Source: Mitsuaria sp. GD03876
Lineage (GTDB): Bacteria > Pseudomonadota > Gammaproteobacteria > Burkholderiales > Burkholderiaceae_C
DNA length: 64,000 nt
Assembly: GCF_029840635.1 (NCBI RefSeq)
Contig: NZ_JAOCCU010000001.1
Coordinates: 1 to 64,000, forward strand
Direction: 5' to 3'
A program made the translations under genes and the position numbers. This document shows positions 2,846 to 53,830 of this stretch, piece after piece. Position 1 is the first letter of the stretch. Each line of letters starts with the position of its first letter. The notes below the pieces were generated by a model. That model made no database searches. It was not told the origin of the DNA and was given only the letters and a program-made list of their open reading frames with translations.

Positions 2846-3442
2846 TTATTGCGAGGCGCCGGAGGCCGGGGCCGAGGCGCCTTCGGCCCCGGAGGCCGCG
2901 GCGGCGGGCAGCTTGGGGTCGTCGAACTTGGCGCCGCCCTGGTTGGCCATGTAGACGACGGCGCGGGAGATCTCGAAGTCGGAGAAGTCGCCGCCGCCCT
3001 GCGGGCCCATGTTGCCCTTGCCCTTGAGCGCGGAGTGCACCAGCGTGTCGAAGCCGGTCTTCACGCGCGGGCCCCAGGCGTCGTGGTCGCCGAGCTTGGG
3101 CGCGCCGGCGGCGCCGGTGGCGTGGCAGGCCGAGCACTGGGCCTGGAAGACCTGTTCGCCGCTCTTCATCGCGGCGGGGTTGGAGAGGTCCTTGAGCTCG
3201 ATCGCGCCGATGCGCTGGATGCGGGTGGCGACGGCCTCCTCGTCCAGGCCGGTGGAGCCGGCGGCGGGCTTGATCTCGCTGGAGACGTAGTTCGCGAGCA
3301 TCACGATGACGACGATCGGGATCAAGAACGCAAAGAAGACCGCGACGGCCAGTTGCTTGGGTGTCTTGATGGGGCCCTCGTGGGCATCGTGACCTTCAGC
3401 GTGCGTGTCCTGGGCGTTGGCGTGGTCCTGGGTTCCGCTCAT
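2846..3442 (-). CDS. Membrane-anchored c-type cytochrome (cytochrome c5 family)
   Basis: A 198-residue protein. A cytosolic N-terminus rich in His, Asp and Glu is followed by one membrane helix (residues 31-53) and a periplasmic domain with the haem-binding motif CSACH (Cys103, Cys106, His107). A likely distal Met ligand lies in GKGNMGPQGG. The low-complexity Ala/Ser/Gly tail is typical of Burkholderiales members. It should carry electrons in the periplasm, tethered to the inner membrane. The start at 3442 is chosen because GAGGAATTC precedes the ATG; the frame is open to 3544. It is divergent from the tRNA gene and ends at the terminator 2800-2823. Confidence 0.9.
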   Translation of the reverse strand: MSGTQDHANAQDTHAEGHDAHEGPIKTPKQLAVAVFFAFLIPIVVIVMLANYVSSEIKPAAGSTGLDEEAVATRIQRIGAIELKDLSNPAAMKSGEQVFQAQCSACHATGAAGAPKLGDHDAWGPRVKTGFDTLVHSALKGKGNMGPQGGGDFSDFEISRAVVYMANQGGAKFDDPKLPAAAASGAEGASAPASGASQ

Positions 3443-5251: not shown

Positions 5252-6853
5252 CTAGGCGGGCCGCGAGAACGGCAGCAGCAGGTGGACGGCGGTGCCGGCG
5301 TCGACGCGGCTGTCGATCTCGATGCGGCCGCCATGGGCGTCGAGGATGGACTTCGCGATGGACAGGCCGATGCCGGTGCCGTCGGCGCGATGGCGGCGCG
5401 CGCGCTCGCTGCGGACGAAGCGCTCGAACACCTGGCCGAGTTCCTCGGGCGGAATGCCGATGCCGTCGTCGCGCACGGTCAGCGCGAGGTCGTCGCCCCG
5501 CAGGTCCCAGGCCACGCGCACCGCGCCATGGGGGCGGGAATAGCGGATCGCGTTGTCGACCACGATCATCAGCGCCTGGCGCAGCCGGATCGGATCGACG
5601 TGGACCTCGAGCGCCGCGGGCACCGGCATCGCCTCGAGCCGCTGGTGATGCGCGGCGGCCAGCGCCTGCGCCTGCGCGATCACGCCGTCCAGCAGCGGCG
5701 CCAGCGCGACGCGCTCCGGCACGATGTCGAGCTCGTCGGCCTCGGCGCGCGCGACCAGCATCAGGTCGTCGACCACCGCCGTGAGCTGCTTGACGGCCGA
5801 GACGATGCGGTCGAGCGCGCGCCGGTAGTCGGCCTCCGTCAGCGTCGATGCCCGCAGCGCGATGTCGGCCTCGCCGCGGATGACGGTGGCCGGGGTGCGC
5901 AGCTCATGGCCGAGGTCCGCGAAGAGCTGGCGCCGGCGCTGGTCGAGCCGCTGCAGCGTCTGGTGCGCGTCCTCGAGTTCGCGGGTGCGGGCGCGCACCT
6001 GGTCCTCGAGCCGGCGGCGCACGGCCTCGGCGGCCTCGCGATGGAGCTGCAGTTCCTGGGCCATCGCGTTGAAGCGCGCGGCCACGCGGTCGAACTCGTC
6101 GCCCGAGCCTACGGGGATGCGGTGGTCGAGGCGGCCCGCCTGCAGCGCCTGCGTGCCTTCGAGCAGCGCGTCCAGCGGCCGCTTGAGGCGACGGCTCAGG
6201 TGCAGGTAGAGGCCGAGCGCCAGCGCGAAGGTGACGCCGACCATGGCCACGGCCTGCTGGCGCAGCCGGCGGATGCCGTCCTCGGTGGCGGCGCGGGCGA
6301 TGGGCACGGCGCGGCGCTGGCCGTCGATGGCGCCGTTGAGCAGGTCGCGCAGGTCGCGGCCGTGGGACATGTCGAAGACCTGGTTGAGCTCGAGCCAGAC
6401 GGCGTCGAAGCTGCCGTGGTCCTCATGCGGCCGCAGCTGCCGCAGCTGGCCGCGCAGCTGGGCGATGTGGTCGCCGAGCAGGTCGCTGATGTCGACGAGC
6501 CGCGCGACGCCGTCGGGCACCGGCGCGCCGTCGCGCGCGGCGAGTTCCTGCCAGGACTCGAGATGGCGGCGGGACATCTCCGACAGGCGCCGCGCGCTGG
6601 CGTCCATCGCGTCGAGCAGCCGTTCGCGGGTCGCGTCCTGGGCGCCGGCGCCCATCACCTGCTGGGCGGCCCAGTTGCGCAGGCGCTGCTTGTTGGCGGA
6701 GAGATCGAGCAGCTCGGACAGCAGGTCGCTGGTCAGGCGGCTGTGGCCCGCGTAGCGGTCCACGCGGATGGCGCCCCAATGGACGAAGGCCGCCTGCACG
6801 CAGACCAGCGCGAGCATGGCCACCAGGGCCAGGGTCAATCGGTGCCGGTACAT
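5252..6853 (-). CDS. Sensor histidine kinase
   Basis: A 533-residue inner-membrane kinase. Membrane helix 1 covers about residues 7-25, a periplasmic sensing region about 26-200, helix 2 about 203-220 and a HAMP linker about 218-272. A short coiled coil is followed by the HisKA domain with phospho-His316 in DLGHELRTP. The ATPase domain has the N box (VDNAIRY), G1 box (DDGIGIPP) and G2 box (GTGIGLSIAK). The periplasmic part matches no ligand-binding family I recognise. It is the first gene of the operon with the response regulator. Two hexamer repeats upstream (6895-6911) suggest autoregulation. Confidence 0.93.
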   Translation of the reverse strand: MYRHRLTLALVAMLALVCVQAAFVHWGAIRVDRYAGHSRLTSDLLSELLDLSANKQRLRNWAAQQVMGAGAQDATRERLLDAMDASARRLSEMSRRHLESWQELAARDGAPVPDGVARLVDISDLLGDHIAQLRGQLRQLRPHEDHGSFDAVWLELNQVFDMSHGRDLRDLLNGAIDGQRRAVPIARAATEDGIRRLRQQAVAMVGVTFALALGLYLHLSRRLKRPLDALLEGTQALQAGRLDHRIPVGSGDEFDRVAARFNAMAQELQLHREAAEAVRRRLEDQVRARTRELEDAHQTLQRLDQRRRQLFADLGHELRTPATVIRGEADIALRASTLTEADYRRALDRIVSAVKQLTAVVDDLMLVARAEADELDIVPERVALAPLLDGVIAQAQALAAAHHQRLEAMPVPAALEVHVDPIRLRQALMIVVDNAIRYSRPHGAVRVAWDLRGDDLALTVRDDGIGIPPEELGQVFERFVRSERARRHRADGTGIGLSIAKSILDAHGGRIEIDSRVDAGTAVHLLLPFSRPA

Positions 6854-6894
6854 GCGGCGGGATTCTAGGAACGACGGCCGACGCGGCGGGGGCG

Positions 6895-6911
6895 TTCATC
6901 TGCGGTTCATG
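6895..6911 (+). promoter_or_regulatory. TTCATC-N5-TTCATG, possible autoregulatory box
   Basis: TTCATC at 6895-6900 and TTCATG at 6906-6911 are 11 bp apart, 42 bp upstream of the kinase start. They repeat the hexamer and spacing found in the array at 4452-4512, but in the opposite orientation relative to the gene. Two copies alone could be chance. The rest of 6854-7104 holds a weak candidate promoter for the next gene (TTGCTC at 7002, TAGAGT at 7024). Confidence 0.35.
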
Positions 6912-7104
6912 TGGGGCGGTGGCCGATGCGGTGCTGGCGACGACGACGAAAGGGGGAGACGCCACGCAAACTCGCTCATCCGGATGCCGCCATTTGTGCG
7001 ATTGCTCATCGAACGCATTTCTCTAGAGTCGCTGGCCTCGGCGCTCGTCGACATCGCCCGGGGGCGGAACGTCGGCAGGCGTCATCACGATGGGAGGTCG
7101 ATGG

Positions 7105-7680
7105 ATGGAGTTGCTCAAGGAAAACTGGATCCGGCTCGCCTATGGCGCGGTCAGCATCTGCATCGCGTGGGCCGCCTACAGCTTTCGCGTCGAGGTCCTG
7201 TCGGACAAGGACACCTTCGACCGCTTCGCCTACATCGGCGGCGTCGCCACCTTCATCGGACTGCTGATCACGGTGTCCGAGGTGCTGCACGCCATCGGCA
7301 TCTCCAAGGGCATCCGGGCGGAGGCCCGCGCCTTGCTCGCCGAAGCGCGCAAGATCGACCGCGCGGCGCTGTTCAGCGAGTGCCTGCTGATGATTGATCG
7401 GATCAACGACGACCTCATCGGCGGGCGGTTCTCTACCGCCTTGCAAGGGCTTCAACAGGTTCGTCGCTCCTTCCTCCGTGCCTCGACATCGAACAGCGGA
7501 ACCGACCCGTTGTCGGCCAAGCTCGCCGGGGTGGAGGAGCTTCTACAAGGCTCGATTCGGATGGCGGCCATGGCACCCCGCTCCAAGCGCGATGCCGTCG
7601 AGATCCAGGAAGGACTGCTGGCCGCCAAGCAGATCCTTGAACACCTCATTGCCGGAAGGACCGACTCCCATGCTGCCTGA
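7105..7680 (+). CDS. Membrane protein of unknown function, first gene of an accessory pair
   Basis: A 191-residue protein I do not recognise. Two membrane helices near the N-terminus (WIRLAYGAVSICIAWAAYSF and YIGGVATFIGLLITVSEVL) are followed by a long, mostly helical, charged cytosolic part (about residues 70-190), possibly coiled coil. The ATG at 7105 is preferred over the one at 7090 because GGGAGG lies seven bases before it. The stop overlaps the next gene by 11 bases, so the two are translationally coupled. Base composition is visibly more AT-rich than the neighbours, suggesting acquisition by transfer. No catalytic motif is visible. Confidence 0.7.
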   Translation: MELLKENWIRLAYGAVSICIAWAAYSFRVEVLSDKDTFDRFAYIGGVATFIGLLITVSEVLHAIGISKGIRAEARALLAEARKIDRAALFSECLLMIDRINDDLIGGRFSTALQGLQQVRRSFLRASTSNSGTDPLSAKLAGVEELLQGSIRMAAMAPRSKRDAVEIQEGLLAAKQILEHLIAGRTDSHAA

Positions 7681-44269: not shown

Positions 44270-44338
44270 CGCCGGGCGCCTGAAGCCAGGCGACCGAAGC
44301 CGACGGACGGGCGACGCTTCGCGGTCAACGCGCGGTGG

Positions 44339-45502
44339 TCAACGCGTGACCTTCGCCGCGCTCAGCGGCACCAGCGCGAGCAGCGCGGCCAGCAGCCAGA
44401 ACGCGGACGACAGGCCGACGCCGGCGGCGAGGAACCCGATCAGCGCCGGGCCGAGCAGCACGCCCGCGTAGCCCGCCGTCGTCACGGCGGAGACCGCGAA
44501 CGCCGCCGGCATCGCCGTCTGTTGGCCGGCGCGGCGGAACAGCACCGGCACCAGGTTGGACGCGCCCAGCCCGATCAGCACGAAGCCCGCGAAGGCCACC
44601 GCGCGCACCGGCGCCAGCAGCAGCGCCGCGACCCCGAGCACCGCGACCACGCCGCCGATCACCAGCGTGCGCCGGTCGCCGAGCCGCGCGACGACCGCGT
44701 CGCCGGCGAAGCGCCCCGCCGTCATCGCCACCGAGAACAGCATGAAGCCCAGGCCGCCCTGCGCCGGCGCGACCAGCTGCGACTCGGTCAGCAGCAGCGC
44801 GCTCCAGTCCAGCACCGCCCCTTCGGCGAGGAAGGTCGCCGCGGCCAGCAGCGCCAGCAGCCACACCATCCCGCGCGGCATCACGAACAACGGACCGCCC
44901 GAGGTCCGCGCGGTCTCCAGCACGTAGGGCCAGGCGACGACGACCGCCAGCGCCATCAGCGCGGCGCCGAGCGCCGTCGCATGCAACGGCTCGAAGCCCA
45001 TCGACAGCAGCAGCGTCATGAAGCCCGCGCCGACGAAACCGCCCACGCTGTACAGGCCGTGGAAGCCCGACATCAGCGGCTTGCCCGCCGCGCGCTCGAC
45101 CTCGATCGCGTTGATGTTCATCGCCACGTCGAGCGAGCCCAGACAGGCGCCGAAGGCCGCCAGCGCCAGGCCCAGGCTCCACGGCGCGTCCGCGACCGCG
45201 AGCAGCGGCAGCACCGCCGCCATGCCGAAGCCGCTGGCCACGATCACCGGCCGCGTGCCCAGGCGCGTGCTCAGCACGCCGGCCGCCACCATCGCCGCCA
45301 CCGATCCCAATCCCAAGCACAGCAGCAGCACGCCGAGCGTGCCCTCGTCGATGCCCAGCCGCTGCCGCGCGAACGGCACCAGCGGCGCCCAGCAGGCGAC
45401 GCCGAAGCCCGCCACCAGGAAGGCCAGCCGCACGGCGAGCCGGTTCTCGGGTTTCTCGACGGCGGTGTCGGCGCCCGCCAGCGCTTGCGGGGACGCGCTC
45501 AT
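44339..45502 (-). CDS. MFS transporter, possibly for a sugar
   Basis: A 387-residue transporter with 12 predicted membrane helices. It resembles the FucP/YbjJ-like group of the major facilitator superfamily: RLAFLVAGFGVACWAPLVPF, GSLDVAMNINAIEVERAAGK, LMSGFHGLYSVGGFVGAGFM. The GSLDVAMN motif is typical of YbjJ-like proteins. The substrate is unknown. Its ATG overlaps the stop of the DeoR-type regulator by four bases, so both are one operon and the regulator probably responds to a sugar phosphate derived from the cargo. Confidence 0.88.
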   Translation of the reverse strand: MSASPQALAGADTAVEKPENRLAVRLAFLVAGFGVACWAPLVPFARQRLGIDEGTLGVLLLCLGLGSVAAMVAAGVLSTRLGTRPVIVASGFGMAAVLPLLAVADAPWSLGLALAAFGACLGSLDVAMNINAIEVERAAGKPLMSGFHGLYSVGGFVGAGFMTLLLSMGFEPLHATALGAALMALAVVVAWPYVLETARTSGGPLFVMPRGMVWLLALLAAATFLAEGAVLDWSALLLTESQLVAPAQGGLGFMLFSVAMTAGRFAGDAVVARLGDRRTLVIGGVVAVLGVAALLLAPVRAVAFAGFVLIGLGASNLVPVLFRRAGQQTAMPAAFAVSAVTTAGYAGVLLGPALIGFLAAGVGLSSAFWLLAALLALVPLSAAKVTR

Positions 45503-46278
45503 CGGGCGGTCTCCACCGGGACCACGTCGACGCCCGCCTCGCGCAGGCCGGCGACGACGCCGGCATCGAGGTCGTGCTCGATCACCGCGGTGCGCAGCAT
45601 CCCGAAGCTGGCGATGCGGTGCGGCGCCGAGGCGCGCGCCTTGTCGCTGGTCAGCAGCGCCGCCGGGTGGCGGCTGTTCTGGACCAGCGTGCGCTTGAAG
45701 GCGGCTTCGCTGAACTGCGTCGTCATGATCCCGTCCGCCACCGACAGCGAGCACACGCCGATGAAGCAGCGGTCGATCCGCATCCGCGAGAGCGCGTCCA
45801 CCGCCGCCGCGTCGACGCAGCCGCCCAGGTGCCGGTCGACCTCGCCGCCCACCATCAGCAACCGCAGGTCCTGGCGGCGCAGCACCTCGGCCGCGACGTC
45901 GACCGCGTTGGTGGCGATCGTCAGGTCCGCGTCCTCGGGCAGGAACTCGACCAGCGCCAGGTTGGTGCTGCCGGTGTCGATGAAGACCAGCTCGCCCCGC
46001 CGCACCGTCGCCGCGCCGGCCCGGGCCAGCGCCGACTTGCGGTCCGGCGCCTCGCGCAACCTCGCGGCCAGCGGCCGGTCGCCGTCGACCACGGGCACCG
46101 CGCCGCCGTAGACGCGCCGGCACAGGCCCTCGGCGGCCAACGCGCGCAGGTCGCGGCGGATCGCGTCCTCGGACAGCTTGAACTCGGCGGCCAGGTCGGC
46201 CGCCACGACGGCCTGCCCCGCCGACAGGCGTTCGGCGATCAGCAGGCGGCGGGATTGGGGAAGGTCGGCTTGCGTCAT
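45499..46278 (-). CDS. DeoR/GlpR-family regulator
   Basis: A 259-residue regulator with a DeoR winged helix (about 8-60: RRLLIAERLSAGQAVVAADL, FKLSEDAIRRDLRALAAEGL, CRRVYGGA) and a sugar-phosphate sensing domain (about 75-240: LVFIDTGSTNLALVEFLPED; TIATNAVDVAAEVL; HLGGCVDAAAV). These proteins repress carbohydrate genes until a phosphorylated sugar binds. The start at 46278 follows GAGGG; the frame is open to 46383. The upstream stretch 46279-46360 has several GCATG/TTCATGC words that could be operator half-sites. It leads the transporter gene. Confidence 0.88.
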   Translation of the reverse strand: MTQADLPQSRRLLIAERLSAGQAVVAADLAAEFKLSEDAIRRDLRALAAEGLCRRVYGGAVPVVDGDRPLAARLREAPDRKSALARAGAATVRRGELVFIDTGSTNLALVEFLPEDADLTIATNAVDVAAEVLRRQDLRLLMVGGEVDRHLGGCVDAAAVDALSRMRIDRCFIGVCSLSVADGIMTTQFSEAAFKRTLVQNSRHPAALLTSDKARASAPHRIASFGMLRTAVIEHDLDAGVVAGLREAGVDVVPVETAR

Positions 46279-46562
46279 GACGCCCTCGGTTGGAGCGCCG
46301 CAGTATGCATGGTTTATCTCGTTCATGCACGTTGTCGCATGATTGTTCGTGCTGCGGCTCGCCCGACATTTCCGCGCCTTCACCCCCTAACTCGCTGCTT
46401 CTTCCCTCAAATCTCTCCCCCGCAGTGGGGAGCTACCCCTGATCCGTGGGAGTTCGCCTTCCCCCGCAAGGGGGCCGACATCCCTAGAGCAGCGGTTTTT
46501 TGCGGCGAGGCGGCCGCCGAAAGTGACGCCGGGCGGTCGATGTTGGCCGCCAGGAGATCGGC

Positions 46563-48965
46563 ATGAAGTCTTTGAACGTGATGCGTCGCATGGCCGCCTG
46601 GGCGGTCCTGAGCGGCGCGACCGCCGTCGTGCTGGGCCTGACGCCCGCCGCGGCACAAACCTCGACGTCGGACCGCGACGTGGTGCCGGGCGCGCAGTTG
46701 CGCACCGGTGAACCGCTGCGCGTCGGCGGGTACGCCGCGCTGCGGGCCAAGGCGCTGCAGTCGCCGCGCAAGGTCCGCGTGATCGCGCGGCTGTCGGCCT
46801 TGGCGGCCGGCACCGGGCCGGCAGCCGAGCCGCTGCGGGCGCTGGGCGAGAGCCCCGCGATCCGGAGCGCGCGGGACCAACTGGTGCTGCGCCTGCGGGC
46901 CCGTGGCGCCGAGTCGGTGGAGGGGCTGGCGGACACCTCGCTGGTCGTGATGGAGGTCGACGCGGCGCAACTCGACGCGCTGGTCGCCAACGGCGAGGTC
47001 GCCGAGCTGACCGAGGACGTCCCGGTGCCGCCGATCCTGGCGCAGTCCGGACCGCTGGTGCACGCGCCGCAGGCGCAGGCGCTCGGCGCGCGCGGTGCCG
47101 GCACCGCGGTGGCGATCCTGGACACCGGCGTGCAGAGCAACCATTCGTTCCTGACCGGCCGCGTCGTCGAGGAGGCCTGCTTCTCGACCACCTCGGCGGG
47201 CAGCAACGCGACCTCGGTCTGCCCGGGCGGCGCCTCCAGCAGCACCGCGGTCGGTTCCGCGGCGCCCTGCGGCATCGGCGGCTGCGACCACGGCACGCAC
47301 GTGGCCGGCATCGCCGCCGGCCGGGCCTTCGGCAGCACCACCTTCAACGGCATGGCGCCCGACGCCAACATCATGGCCGTGCAGGTGTTCTCGCGCTTCG
47401 CCGACACGCCGGGGAACACGCCCTGCGCCAACGCGGGCACCGCCTCGCCGTGCGCGCTGAGCTTCACCTCGGACCAGATCCGCGGGCTGCAACGCGTGCT
47501 CGACCGGCGCGCCGCGCGCAACGTGGTGGCGGTGAACATGAGCCTGGGCGGCGGCGTCAACGCCGCGGCCTGCGACGCCGATGCCCGCAAGGACGTCATC
47601 GACGACCTGCTCGCGGCCCGCGTGGCCACGGTGATCGCCTCGGGCAACAACGGCTCGTCGACCGGCGTCAGCGCGCCGGGCTGCATCTCCACCGCGGTGA
47701 CGGTGGGATCGACGACCAAGACCGACACGATCTCGAGCTTCTCCAACAGCTCGTCGCTGGTGGACATCCTGGCGCCCGGATCGAGCATCAACTCGTCGGT
47801 CACCGGCAGCGCCTTCGGCGTCAAGAGCGGCACGTCGATGGCGACGCCGCACGTGGTCGGCGCCTTCGCGGCGATCCGCTCGATGGTGCCCGGCGCCAAC
47901 GTGGGCGACATCCTCGGCGCGCTGCAGGCCACCGGCGTCGCGATCACGGACGCGCGCAACGGCGTGACCAGGCGGCGCATCAACATCGAGGCCGCCGTCC
48001 AGCAGCTCGCGCCGCAGCCGTTCGCGCTGTCCAGCGGCATGCTGTTCCAGATGCACGCCGACGGCCGCATCTGGGCCCACACCGGCGTGGCCTGCTCGGG
48101 CAGCAGCTGCCCGGGCTGGGTGATGCTGGACAACAACCCCGCCACCAAGGCGATTGCCGCCGGCGGCAACGCGCTGTACCAGCTGCACGCGGACGGCAAG
48201 GTCTGGCGCTACACCGGCATCCGCTGCGGCGCCAACGCCTGCCCGGGCTGGCAGATGCTGGACAACAACCCGGCCACGAAGCAGATCGCCGCGGGCGGCA
48301 CCTCGCTGTACCAGCGCCACGCGGACGGGAAGATCTGGCGCTCGACCGGCGCGGCCTGCTCAGGCAACAGCTGCCCCGGCTGGACGATGCTGGACACGAA
48401 CCCGGCCACCGTCGACATCGTCGCGGACGGCACGCGGCTCTACCAGCGCCACAACAACGGCCGCATCTGGCGCTTCACCGGCACGGTGTGCTCCGGCAAC
48501 AGCTGCCCGGGCTGGTCGATGCTGGACAACAACCCGCACACGATCGCGCTCGCCGCGGCCGGCGGCGCGCTGTTCCAGCTGCATGACACCGGCGCGATCT
48601 GGCGCTCCACCGGCGTGGCCTGCTCCGGCAACAGCTGCCCGGGCTGGACGATGCTCGACAACAACCCGGCGGCGCGCGAGATCGCGGCCAACGTCGGCGG
48701 ACTGTTCCAGCGGCATGTCGACGGGAAGATCTGGCGCTTCACCGGCACGGTGTGCTCGGGCAACAGCTGCCCGGGGTGGACGATGCTCGACAACAACGGC
48801 GCGACGGTGCAGATCGAGGCGGCCACCAGCGGCCTCTACCAGCGCCACGGCAACGGCCGCATCTGGCGGTCGACCGGCGCGGCGTGCTCGGGCAACAGCT
48901 GCCCGGGCTGGGTGATGCTGGACAACAATCCGGCCACCACCGCCATCGTGACGGCCCAGCCATGA
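46563..48965 (+). CDS. Secreted subtilisin-like serine protease (S8) with seven C-terminal repeats
   Basis: An 800-residue exported protease. Signal peptide about residues 1-31, then an I9-like propeptide (about 68-158, ending QLDALVANGEVAELTEDVPV). The S8 domain (about 180-480) has the triad Asp187 (AILDTGVQ), His246 (DHGTHVAGI) and Ser425 (SGTSMATPH), plus the oxyanion Asn in SGNNG. Paired cysteines in the catalytic domain suggest disulfides. Residues 492-800 are seven 44-residue repeats of a Trp-rich, propeller- or lectin-like type. AGGAG precedes the ATG by six bases. The stop overlaps the next gene (ATGA). Probably acts outside the cell. Confidence 0.92.
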   Translation: MKSLNVMRRMAAWAVLSGATAVVLGLTPAAAQTSTSDRDVVPGAQLRTGEPLRVGGYAALRAKALQSPRKVRVIARLSALAAGTGPAAEPLRALGESPAIRSARDQLVLRLRARGAESVEGLADTSLVVMEVDAAQLDALVANGEVAELTEDVPVPPILAQSGPLVHAPQAQALGARGAGTAVAILDTGVQSNHSFLTGRVVEEACFSTTSAGSNATSVCPGGASSSTAVGSAAPCGIGGCDHGTHVAGIAAGRAFGSTTFNGMAPDANIMAVQVFSRFADTPGNTPCANAGTASPCALSFTSDQIRGLQRVLDRRAARNVVAVNMSLGGGVNAAACDADARKDVIDDLLAARVATVIASGNNGSSTGVSAPGCISTAVTVGSTTKTDTISSFSNSSSLVDILAPGSSINSSVTGSAFGVKSGTSMATPHVVGAFAAIRSMVPGANVGDILGALQATGVAITDARNGVTRRRINIEAAVQQLAPQPFALSSGMLFQMHADGRIWAHTGVACSGSSCPGWVMLDNNPATKAIAAGGNALYQLHADGKVWRYTGIRCGANACPGWQMLDNNPATKQIAAGGTSLYQRHADGKIWRSTGAACSGNSCPGWTMLDTNPATVDIVADGTRLYQRHNNGRIWRFTGTVCSGNSCPGWSMLDNNPHTIALAAAGGALFQLHDTGAIWRSTGVACSGNSCPGWTMLDNNPAAREIAANVGGLFQRHVDGKIWRFTGTVCSGNSCPGWTMLDNNGATVQIEAATSGLYQRHGNGRIWRSTGAACSGNSCPGWVMLDNNPATTAIVTAQP
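48036..48962 (+). repeat. Seven tandem 132-base coding repeats
   Basis: Units start at 48036, 48168, 48300, 48432, 48564, 48696 and 48828. Each encodes 44 residues of the form LYQRHADGKIWRSTGAACSG followed by NSCPGWTMLDNNPATxxI. Each has a Cys-x4-Cys pair and three Trp or Tyr positions. The even number of residues and the lack of insertions suggest recent or constrained duplication of one blade-like unit. Confidence 0.93.
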
Positions 48966-49462
48966 CGTTCCGGTCACCGCGCCTGTCCCGGCCCCGCATG
49001 CCGACCTCCCTGGGCATGCCGGCGTGCGTGGTCGCGGCCCTGATGGGCACGGCCTGCGCGCTGATGGGCGGCGACGGCGCGGTGGCCGGTTCGCCGGGCG
49101 CGCCGATGTCGATGCCTTCGGGGGCGCCGGGCGCCGGGGCCTCGGGCATTCCCGGCGCGTCGTCCCCTTCGGCGTCCGATTCGGAGTGCCTCGCCATGGA
49201 CCTCATCGACGGCGCGAGCGCGCTGCTTCAATCGCTGGACCGGTCGCCCGACCGGCCGGCGCGGGTGCTGCTCAAGCTCAAGCCGGGGCCGCAGGCGCTG
49301 GCGGAGGTCCGACGGGCGCTCGACGCGGCGAAGGCCACGGGCGAGGCCGTCGGCGGCCGGCCGCTGCTGGTGGCGGAGCTGACCGCCTCGCAGCTGCGCG
49401 CGGTGCTGGCGACCTGCCAGGTGGCGGGCGTGCAGCGCGACGAGCCGGTGCCGGGAACCTGA
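48962..49462 (+). CDS. Exported protein resembling a stand-alone protease propeptide (I9-like)
   Basis: A 166-residue protein. The hydrophobic N-terminus (PACVVAALMGTAC) is a signal, possibly a weak lipobox at Cys32, followed by a Gly/Pro/Ala/Ser linker (about 40-75). Residues 99-163 look like an I9 propeptide fold: RVLLKLKPGPQALAEVRRAL and QLRAVLATCQVAGVQRDEPV. The latter aligns with residues 136-155 of the upstream protease, QLDALVANGEVAELTEDVPV. The gene overlaps the protease stop by four bases. I infer a separately encoded inhibitor or folding chaperone for the protease; this is untested. Confidence 0.7.
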   Translation: MTFRSPRLSRPRMPTSLGMPACVVAALMGTACALMGGDGAVAGSPGAPMSMPSGAPGAGASGIPGASSPSASDSECLAMDLIDGASALLQSLDRSPDRPARVLLKLKPGPQALAEVRRALDAAKATGEAVGGRPLLVAELTASQLRAVLATCQVAGVQRDEPVPGT

Positions 49463-49541
49463 CGACCGGATCGGCCATCGCGACGCTGCCATGATGTCGC
49501 CCAGCCGAGGCCCATCCCGGGCCTTCCGCCAAGGAGCGCCC

Positions 49542-50051
49542 ATGAGCACCGCATCGATGCTGTCGACCCTGTTCCGCTACCAGGCCTGGGCCCATGACGG
49601 GTTCCTGCGGGCCATCGAGGCGCTCGATGCCGGGCGGCATCCGGAACAGCGCCACCTGGCGCTGCGCGTGCTCAACCACGTCTACGTGGTCAACCAGATC
49701 TTCACCGGCCACCTGACCGGCCAGCCGCACGGCTACGAGGCCAACAACACCGTCGACACGGCGACGCCCGAGGCGCTGCGCGCGGCGCATGCGGCATCGG
49801 ACCGGTGGTTCCTCGAATACCTCGCGTCGATCACGCCGGAGCAACTGGCCGAGCGCGTCGCGTTCCGCTTCACCGACGGCGACCACGGCGCGATGACGCG
49901 CGAGGAGATGCTGTTCCACGTGGTGACGCACGACGGTTATCACCGCGGCGAGGTGGGGCGGCTGCTCAAGCAGATCGAATCGCCGCTGCCGTGGGACACC
50001 TTCGCGGTGTTCCTGCACCAGGACCAGCCGGAGCGGCGCGGTCAGCAATGA
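49542..50051 (+). CDS. DinB-family protein
   Basis: A 169-residue four-helix-bundle protein of the DinB/YfiT superfamily. Likely metal ligands are His46 (RVLNHVYVVNQ), His130 and His134 (THDGYHRGEVGRLL). Family members include thiol-dependent S-transferases; the substrate is unknown here. The ATG at 49542 follows AAGGAG by five bases, deciding the start although the frame is open from 49491. It is 79 bases downstream of the propeptide-like gene and probably a separate unit. Confidence 0.88.
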   Translation: MSTASMLSTLFRYQAWAHDGFLRAIEALDAGRHPEQRHLALRVLNHVYVVNQIFTGHLTGQPHGYEANNTVDTATPEALRAAHAASDRWFLEYLASITPEQLAERVAFRFTDGDHGAMTREEMLFHVVTHDGYHRGEVGRLLKQIESPLPWDTFAVFLHQDQPERRGQQ

Positions 50052-50125
50052 CGGCCGGGGCGGCGAGCGCGGCCCCATGCCGCCAGACCGCACGAAGCGT
50101 CTGCGACGCCCGGATCGCGACCCAC

Positions 50126-50161
50126 AAAAAAGGACGCCCGACCAGCGAGCTGACCGGGCGT
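50126..50161 (-). terminator. Rho-independent terminator on the minus strand
   Basis: A stem of ACGCCCG (50134-50140) with CGGGCGT (50155-50161), followed on the minus strand by CC and six T (50131-50126). There is no T run in the plus direction. Confidence 0.7.
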
Positions 50162-50330
50162 TGCAAGTCCTAGAAAGGACGTCGTTGGGATCGGTGCCTG
50201 CCGTCGGGGCCTGGGGCCGCGCCGTCGGAAGACGTGAGATGGACTCTAGGGCGAACCCTGAGCCTCCGGCATCCCCTCAAGGTGGGAATCAGTCGAAAAA
50301 TAGTCAGCAGGTGTAAGCACCACTCCGCAA
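50126..50330 (-). ncRNA. Possible small RNA upstream of the orphan terminator
   Basis: Read on the minus strand, the segment holds a 7-bp stem CCTTGAG...CTCAGGG (one G-U pair) directly before a hairpin AGGG-TTCG-CCCT (50259-50248). A GTCC-TTTCTA-GGAC hairpin and the terminator follow. A 5' end near 50330 is a guess; no clear promoter is seen. The CACCTTGA word recalls part of 6S RNA, but the match is too short to name it. Confidence 0.3.
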
Positions 50331-50483
50331 TACGGAAAAGTCCTCGGCATCGCGCGGAACGCCCATGACTTTCGTGCGGGAGGCCACACAAGACACGCCG
50401 GTCCGCATGCCCAGGCACGCGCCGCGTCGCCCGTTGGAAGGACAGTCCCGCCCCGGGTCGACCCGCCCGGATAATCGCGCCCC

Positions 50484-51256
50484 ATGACCGCGTCCAAGCC
50501 TCCCCAGAAGTCCGGCCCCCGCCCGCCCGCCGCCAAGACCGGCGCGCCCGCCCGCGGTCCGCGACCCCAGCACGGCCGCGCGCCTTCGGGCGCCGCCGCG
50601 CCCAGCGCGCCGCCCGACGCCTGGAGCGACGACGACCTCGACGAGCTGCAATCGCTGCTCGACGAGGTGCCCGCGCCGCTGGAGCCGCTCGACGCGTCGA
50701 TGCTCGACGGCTTCCTGGTCGCGGTGATCCTGCAGCCCAAGCCGGTGCCGCTGTCCGATTGGTGGCGCTGGGTCCTCGATGCCGAGGAAGGCCGCCCCGC
50801 CCCGGCCCGCTACGACGCGCAGCCGCTGCTGCAGCTGGTCCAGCGCCGCGAGCGCGAGCTCAAGCAGGCGATCGCCGATCGCCAGTGGTTCGACCCCTGG
50901 GTCTTCGAGCTCGACGAGGACGCCTCGCCCTCCGAGACGGTGCTGCCCTGGGTCGCGGGTTTCGCGCTCGCCGCGGACCTCTTCCCGGCGCTGATGAACC
51001 TGGACGAGTCCGAGCTCACCGAGCCGCTCGCGCAGCTCTACATGCACCTGGATCCCGAGGACCTCGAGGACGCCGACGCGCTGCTCGAGGAGATCGAGAG
51101 CCTGGAGCCGCCCGAGGAGCTCGACGAGGCCGTCGAGAGCCTGGTGCGCGCCACGCTGCTGCTGGCCGACGTCTCGCGGCCGCAGCCGAAGCCGCAACGG
51201 CCCGGCGGCCATGGCGGCCCGGGCGGCCCGCGCCGCGGCGGACCGCCGCCCCGCCG

Positions 51257-51266
<10 letters not shown>
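50484..51266 (+). CDS. YecA/YgfB (UPF0149) family protein
   Basis: A 260-residue protein. A disordered basic Pro/Ala-rich N-terminus (about 1-45) precedes the UPF0149 helical domain (about 46-215), with the hallmark LDASMLDGFLVAVILQPKPV, the acidic WVFELDEDASPSETVLPWVAGF and an acidic helix PEDLEDADALLEEIES. A Gly/Pro/Arg-rich tail ends the protein. It lacks the C-terminal SEC-C zinc motif that many YecA proteins carry. The function is uncertain. It converges on the S9 peptidase gene, overlapping its end by ten bases. Confidence 0.85.

Positions 51267-53830
<2,564 letters not shown>

Follow-up and report, generated by a model that had tools for sequence, protein, structure and literature searches.

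The 64,000-nucleotide stretch of DNA analysed here (the window; Mitsuaria sp. GD03876, contig NZ_JAOCCU010000001.1, positions 1 to 64,000 of the forward strand) contains a gene for a secreted subtilisin-like protease (subtilase) of family S8, the end of which overlaps a small gene encoding a protein that resembles, at its C-terminus, the propeptide of the protease itself. This raises the question of what a second, separately encoded propeptide-like protein would do beside a protease that keeps a propeptide of its own (in cis). We propose, with moderate confidence, that the product of the small gene is exported, is probably stabilised by a disulfide and, as a mimic of the propeptide, would cap the protease in the periplasm. 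Both reading frames, including the ATGA common to them, had been described in an earlier reading made from the DNA letters alone (the sequence-only reading) and were confirmed from the sequence. The features in question are:

46563..48965, forward strand: S8 subtilase gene, 800 amino acids, with seven C-terminal tectonin-like repeats
48962..49462, forward strand: small partner gene, 166 amino acids, with an ATGA overlap with the protease gene
49253..49459, forward strand: propeptide (I9)-like domain of the small protein, residues 98-166, with statistical support for about residues 127-166

The sequence-only reading had claimed that the C-terminal domain of the small protein resembles the end of the propeptide of the upstream protease, and profile tests place this likeness above chance. 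In the near-matching stretches, which start at residue 144 of the small protein and residue 136 of the protease, 9 of 20 residues are identical. Comparison by hhalign of the three small proteins (from the window and the related genomes G006 and G011) with the propeptide family gave a score of 35.2 and a probability of 87% over an ungapped C-terminal stretch of 40 residues, a score reached by none of 500 column shuffles (maximum 20.4). Singly, the window protein scored 28.4 and its orthologues 33.7 and 34.2, with a maximum of 17.6 in 192 control windows, which were taken from 50 non-overlapping predicted open reading frames (ORFs) of the window (at most seven per ORF), neither the small gene nor the cis propeptide being among them. 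Furthermore, a model of the small proteins was run against 1869 frames of at least 40 amino acids, derived from 15 loci and 12 kb of the window. Apart from the sequences it was built from, its best matches were the three cognate proteases (E 5e-4 to 2e-3), followed by a Sinorhizobium protease from neither set (E=0.017) and by locus L052 (E=0.099), and the model aligned to the C-terminal half of each matched propeptide; behind the propeptides came two frames at chance level (E 0.43 and 0.52). A hidden Markov model (HMM) of the propeptides gave the two orthologues 18.6 bits and 16.1 bits (E=5.4e-4 and 3.7e-3 among the 1869 frames), and none of the shuffles of the C-terminal part of the window protein scored as high. 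These comparisons support homology of the small-protein domain to subtilase propeptides over its C-terminal half, and an I9-like fold is proposed for it. The profile search against Inhibitor_I9 that had been suggested as a check came out in part, in that profile homology to the C-terminal half of subtilase propeptides was recovered and a direct Pfam I9 match was not.

The protease itself comprises the following parts:

46563..46655, forward strand: putative signal peptide, residues 1-31, ending TPAAA before Q, assigned from sequence by inspection
46758..47039, forward strand: I9-like cis propeptide, about residues 66-159, ending TEDVPVPPIL before AQS
47094..47909, forward strand: S8 catalytic domain, residues 178-449 (Pfam PF00082, E=1.9e-29)
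48021..48962, forward strand: seven 44-residue tectonin-like repeats, with CPGW at residues 516, 560, 604, 648, 692, 736 and 780

The catalytic domain contains AILDTG (from residue 184), HGTHVAG (243) and GTSMATP (423), motifs in which the catalytic Asp, His and Ser are usually found, and CPGW occurs seven times in the protein. The repeats reach 21.1 bits (E=2.4e-4) with Pfam Tectonin PF19193, under the cut-off of 30. Alignment A3, consisting of 12 propeptides from this protease and its relatives, was used to examine the cis propeptide. As a profile, A3 has 14 matches in the PDB at E<=10, all of them to subtilases or an extracellular serine proteinase (8c4z_A) and all falling in the prodomain or in what length suggests is the prodomain; the best match is subtilisin E (1scj_B, E=6.1e-4), and subtilisin BPN' (1spb_P) and Tk-subtilisin are also among them. 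Taken one by one, seven of the 12 propeptides give a match to Pfam Inhibitor_I9 (PF05922) at E<=1, the best at 2.1e-5, and the one from the window protease gives none.

In the small protein, the propeptide-like domain is preceded by an export-type N-terminus and a linker, and the following features are distinguished:

48962..49087, forward strand: putative signal peptide, residues 1-42, with a basic start, a hydrophobic core and AVA before G, assigned by inspection
49088..49186, forward strand: linker rich in Ala, Gly, Pro and Ser, of varying length among the three species (alignment A1)
49187..49189, forward strand: Cys76, conserved in 3/3, candidate disulfide partner of Cys152
49415..49417, forward strand: Cys152, conserved in 3/3
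49442..49459, forward strand: C-terminal tail EPVPGT, six residues past Asp160, opposite VPVPPI of the cis propeptide

In all three species the N-terminus has a best 15-residue hydropathy of 2.0-2.3, preceded by four to five Lys/Arg and no Asp/Glu, and AVAG is present. The small protein is therefore apparently exported, as the sequence-only reading had held, with the export-type features kept in the orthologues as judged by inspection. A lipoprotein was considered, given the lipobox-like MGTAC at Cys32, and was rejected, as this motif is missing in the G011 orthologue (MAAAVMG) and the AVA/G site is kept in all three. At the other end of the protein, the three tails (EPVPGT, EAVPPS and QPAPTG) all stop six residues past a conserved Asp and stand opposite VPVPPI, VPVPAT and VPVPPT in the cis propeptides, the junction of which (VPVPxT/I) they resemble. 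Judged by their alignments and lengths, the solved prodomains 1scj_B and 1spb_P likewise end six residues past the matching Asp, and the length of the tail would therefore suffice for it to lie in the active-site cleft. The agreement among the three tails is not independent evidence, because the three small proteins are close relatives.

Scanning of genome contigs with the small protein recovered one relative, Mitsuaria sp. PDC51 (L037), which is taken to be the same genome as G006 (L054). Among 16 genomes of the window's genus, the small gene was found in three, namely its own, G006 (L054) and G011 (L055); the protease was detected at E<=1e-20 in the same three, and 13 of the 16 showed neither gene. 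In each genome the best 12 candidates for the small protein were scored, and absence is to that extent not proven. Short matches in G005, G010 and at a second place in the window's own genome cover residues 9-72 and lie in frames of 656-960 amino acids (in G005 and G010 these are weak and within 960-residue frames), with many weaker matches besides. The ATGA start/stop overlap is kept in both relatives (3/3 loci), and the protease and the small protein are probably made from one message. A consensus promoter scan of 46380-50500 found zero sites.

The order mmsA, LysR, MFS (major facilitator superfamily), DeoR, protease, small gene, DinB, UPF0149-like is common to the window and G006, with the labels LysR, DeoR and DinB taken from Pfam and mmsA, MFS and UPF0149 assigned by inspection. 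The MFS and DeoR genes are missing at this place in G011, where positions 3868-4036 of L055, between LysR and the protease, correspond to 44325-46383 of the window; a DeoR homologue (54% identical) lies on another contig of G011. A large gene of the S9 prolyl-oligopeptidase family (window 51257-53830, reverse strand) is located nearby and is also kept in L054. Directly downstream of the small gene follows:

49491..50051, forward strand: DinB-family gene (Pfam PF05163, E=2.4e-18), kept in synteny

The DinB-family gene is a conserved neighbour and probably not part of the mechanism proposed here.

The small gene has a gene-like GC content by codon position and evolves faster than the protease gene. 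The ratio of nonsynonymous to synonymous substitution rates (dN/dS), a rough measure here as it was obtained by a simple Nei-Gojobori count in GC-rich genes, is 0.42-0.82 for the small gene (the widest pair giving 0.74 and not 0.82 with pairwise alignment) versus 0.07-0.28 for the protease gene, and identity is 55-75% among the small proteins against 87% for the protease. When G006 is compared with G011, the synonymous divergence (dS) is 0.15-0.24 for the protease, LysR, mmsA and UPF0149-like genes, 0.54 for the small gene and 0.59 for the DinB gene. An exchange of the protease gene between G006 and G011, first hinted at by the identity profile, was discarded, since the dS of the flanking genes points to the small gene and DinB instead. 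A recombination event that began close to the stop codon of the protease gene is suggested by the divergent segment in G011 (L055, about 6438-7470, relative to L054). In the comparison of the window with G006, the small gene has the highest dS of the set (0.46 versus 0.23-0.37), and part of the excess may therefore be its own. When the last 38 residues are compared, propeptides of their own lineage are the three best matches for the small proteins of the window and of G011, which fits an origin of the small gene by duplication of the local propeptide without constituting proof of it.

Serralysin inhibitors of the AprI type, which are characterised by a profile of their own and a metalloprotease partner, differ from the present case, as the small protein gave no such profile match in Pfam at E<=10 and its partner is an S8 serine protease. 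The systems compared below are described as far as the accessible parts of the cited papers go. In Aeromonas sobria, the gene of the chaperone ORF2 lies directly downstream of that of the protease ASP, the C-terminus of ORF2 binds the catalytic site, and ORF2 inhibits ASP with a half-maximal inhibitory concentration (IC50) of 84.3 nM; homologous operons are described from Vibrio, Shewanella, Chromobacterium and Pseudoalteromonas (PMC5638518). The Mitsuaria pair shares with ASP/ORF2 a secreted subtilisin-like protease and a gene just downstream, in the case of ORF2 encoding a protein whose C-terminus reaches the catalytic site and inhibits. ASP, according to the title of a paper cited in PMC5638518, is propeptide-deficient, and it depends on ORF2, whereas the present protease has its own I9-like propeptide. 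No ORF2-like match was found among the PDB sequences for the small protein, which was not compared directly with ORF2 itself. The vvsAB genes of Vibrio vulnificus also combine a protease drawn with a signal peptide and a propeptide (VvsA) with a small downstream partner of exported type (VvsB), the gene of which starts 6 bp downstream and includes a signal peptide, and the proposal is that VvsB keeps VvsA in check within the cell and not outside (PMC11272048). In contrast to the protease described here, VvsA is called chymotrypsin-like, and VvsB was a weak inhibitor that raised activity outside the cell; the accessible parts of PMC11272048 note no propeptide likeness of VvsB.

Separate propeptide-like proteins are known from eukaryotes. 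The Plasmodium protein SUB1-ProM, the gene of which neighbours those of subtilases, is a standalone mimic of a propeptide and inhibits SUB1, a protease with a propeptide of its own, and further standalone types are TgMIC5 of Toxoplasma, the yeast peptidase B inhibitor and Arabidopsis subtilisin propeptide-like inhibitor 1 (PMC6993865). The present pair resembles SUB1-ProM and SUB1 in that a separate propeptide-like protein is encoded beside a subtilase that has its own propeptide, and differs from these inhibitors in its bacterial origin and its overlapping operon; they are likened here by their published description and not by sequence. In Myxococcus xanthus, PopD holds back the subtilisin-like protease PopC (PMC6434023), another Gram-negative example of such a protease restrained by a dedicated partner, from which the present partner differs in that it looks exported. 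The claim of the sequence-only reading that the pairing is undescribed in Gram-negative bacteria is too strong, because the ASP/ORF2 and VvsA/VvsB operons of a protease and a downstream regulator are described. What remains of the claim is the unusual feature of the locus, namely that the protease has retained a propeptide although its partner is propeptide-like as well. Among the titles and abstract openings covered, which included few subscription papers, no bacterial subtilase was found that combines a cis propeptide with a separate partner of propeptide type, and this provides weak evidence of novelty.

If the small protein acts as a periplasmic cap, protease and small protein would cross the inner membrane separately, and in the periplasm the I9-like domain of the small protein would dock on the catalytic domain, its EPVPGT tail being placed in the substrate cleft in the fashion of the cis propeptide. 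The small protein would cap protease already stripped of its cis propeptide, and this capping would shield the periplasm until the protease leaves the cell. The Cys76/Cys152 pair would suit a long-lived exported protein. A second folding chaperone is not obviously needed, because the protease keeps its cis propeptide, and for this reason the periplasmic cap is favoured. The presence of the protease and the small gene is fully linked in the 16 genus genomes, which supports this reading, as may, by analogy, the inhibition of ASP by ORF2 and of SUB1 by SUB1-ProM.

Several observations weigh against the periplasmic cap. The propeptide HMM gave the window small protein 12.2 bits, a value that one of 20000 shuffles of its C-terminal part exceeded, and among the 1869 frames the propeptide model placed it at E=0.34, below an unrelated-looking frame of L053 (E=0.079); of the three small proteins, that of the window thus gives the weakest match. 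Over its first half, the domain does not rise above chance level (18 of 200 shuffles did as well), although RVLLKL aligns with RVIARL; the likeness is supported for the last ~40 residues only. With the small protein as query, searches of Pfam, NCBIfam and the PDB returned no propeptide match. Its sole Pfam match at E<=10 is to an unrelated family (E=0.055), PF05922 is without a match to it at E<=10 and without one anywhere in the genome at E<=0.01, and comparison with PHROGs and with plasmids gave nothing useful. In addition, the G006 small protein scores higher with a distant propeptide (L049) than with its own cognate, and, if the cis cut follows Leu159, the tail may be one residue short of the P1 position. 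In one pair, the dN/dS of the small gene approaches neutrality. In G011, the small gene together with the DinB gene has the look of a divergent allele, whereas the adjacent protease gene is closely conserved; protease and partner are therefore not strictly inherited together, and the idea that they are was abandoned on account of this segment. Finally, VvsB is only a weak inhibitor and none outside the cell (PMC11272048, as far as accessible).

The three roles offered by the sequence-only reading, inhibitor, chaperone and switch, are indistinguishable from sequence, and a chaperone role and then weakly constrained drift remain the next readings, in that order. We consider it rather unlikely that the small protein is a trans-acting folding chaperone like ORF2, helping the nascent protease to fold or protecting it, with inhibition as a step of maturation. 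The gene order would match, as in asp/orf2 active protease is obtained only with the downstream gene, the product of which has its C-terminus at the catalytic site (PMC5638518, accessible parts), a 2013 review put VvsB forward as a chaperone (PMC3831164, accessible parts), and a propeptide-like domain would be capable of both jobs. However, ASP is called propeptide-deficient, whereas the present protease has an I9-like propeptide, and the eight distant proteases that could be judged, seven of them with a propeptide in A3, occur without such a partner.

A duplicated propeptide fragment under weak constraint, either an unimportant exported by-product or decaying, would be consistent with the occurrence in only 3 of 16 genus genomes, with the upper dN/dS of 0.82 and with the low identity compared to the protease (55-75% vs 87%). 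We regard this as improbable, given that the frame is open in all three species despite big changes in linker length, that the overlap at the start, the features of a signal peptide, the two Cys and the length of the tail are all conserved, that codon-position GC is gene-like and that the small gene lies beside the protease in 3/3. Still less probable, and in our view only a faint prospect, is an exported inhibitor directed at foreign subtilases of competitors, predators or hosts and not at the neighbouring protease: two of the three small proteins match propeptides of their own lineage best, and the small gene occurs together with the protease gene and overlaps it, even though the faster evolution of the small gene would fit a changing target, as would the apparent independent allele replacement in G011.

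Returning to the periplasmic cap, a more far-reaching version of it is conceivable, which we put forward tentatively and regard as possible rather than probable. In it, the two propeptides would have divided the work, the cis copy serving folding and the disulfide-locked copy from the overlapping gene serving as a reusable immunity inhibitor that holds active protease in the periplasm, duplicated from the cis propeptide and exchangeable between species independently of the protease. If true, the locus would show, in a bacterium, the two functions of a subtilase propeptide, chaperone and inhibitor, divided between cis and trans copies in one operon, and they would be separable by single-copy deletions. 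The locus bears on how Gram-negative bacteria survive making broad-specificity subtilases in their periplasm.

Conservation of the pair across genera, which the sequence-only reading had named as support, was not borne out, as the pair is confined to 3 of 16 genomes of one genus, with no convincing copy in the family and order samples. In 399 genomes of the family and 399 of the order, the small-protein search gave two weak matches each among the best 12 candidates per genome, none of them convincing. G527 was rejected as a relative because the protein reads as Lys/Gln-rich, helix-like and exported, and G690 because the match falls within a longer frame, apparently that of an unrelated enzyme; the weak matches in G085 and G123 lie in frames of 447 and 423 amino acids and, judged by coordinates, do not reach the tail. 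Relatives of the protease domain, sought among the best three candidates per genome, were detected in the family sample in at least six other genomes (E<=1e-30, 35-47% identity) and in the order sample in at least five (E<=1e-40, 43-48% identity). Of 11 distant protease loci examined, L051, L068 and L070 were set aside for missing or short downstream DNA at the contig end, and none of the eight that were judged has a neighbouring frame like the small protein by the small-protein model in the 1869 frames. Among 214 genomes of the phylum, no standalone-looking Pfam I9 was found (13 matches in eight genomes, all in frames of at least 380 amino acids), with the limit that Pfam I9 also misses the present case. 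Comparison of the protease with viral contigs gave nothing useful.

Other small genes follow some of the distant proteases. In L049, from another genus, an unrelated, exported-looking frame of 108 amino acids (5891-6217) starts 12 bases after the stop of the S8 protease. A conserved, exported-looking protein of ~270 amino acids follows two distant S8 genes of one genus (L048 3769-4590 and L050 5986-6795); its end appears to resemble chaperone domains of the peptidase S74 type. Interrupted or short S8 frames were seen in L072 (3095-4519, a two-piece match) and in L070 (a stop near 3390), and on Sinorhizobium pSymA (L118 2773-3510) the annotated S8 coding sequence, at 738 bases, is shorter than the match.

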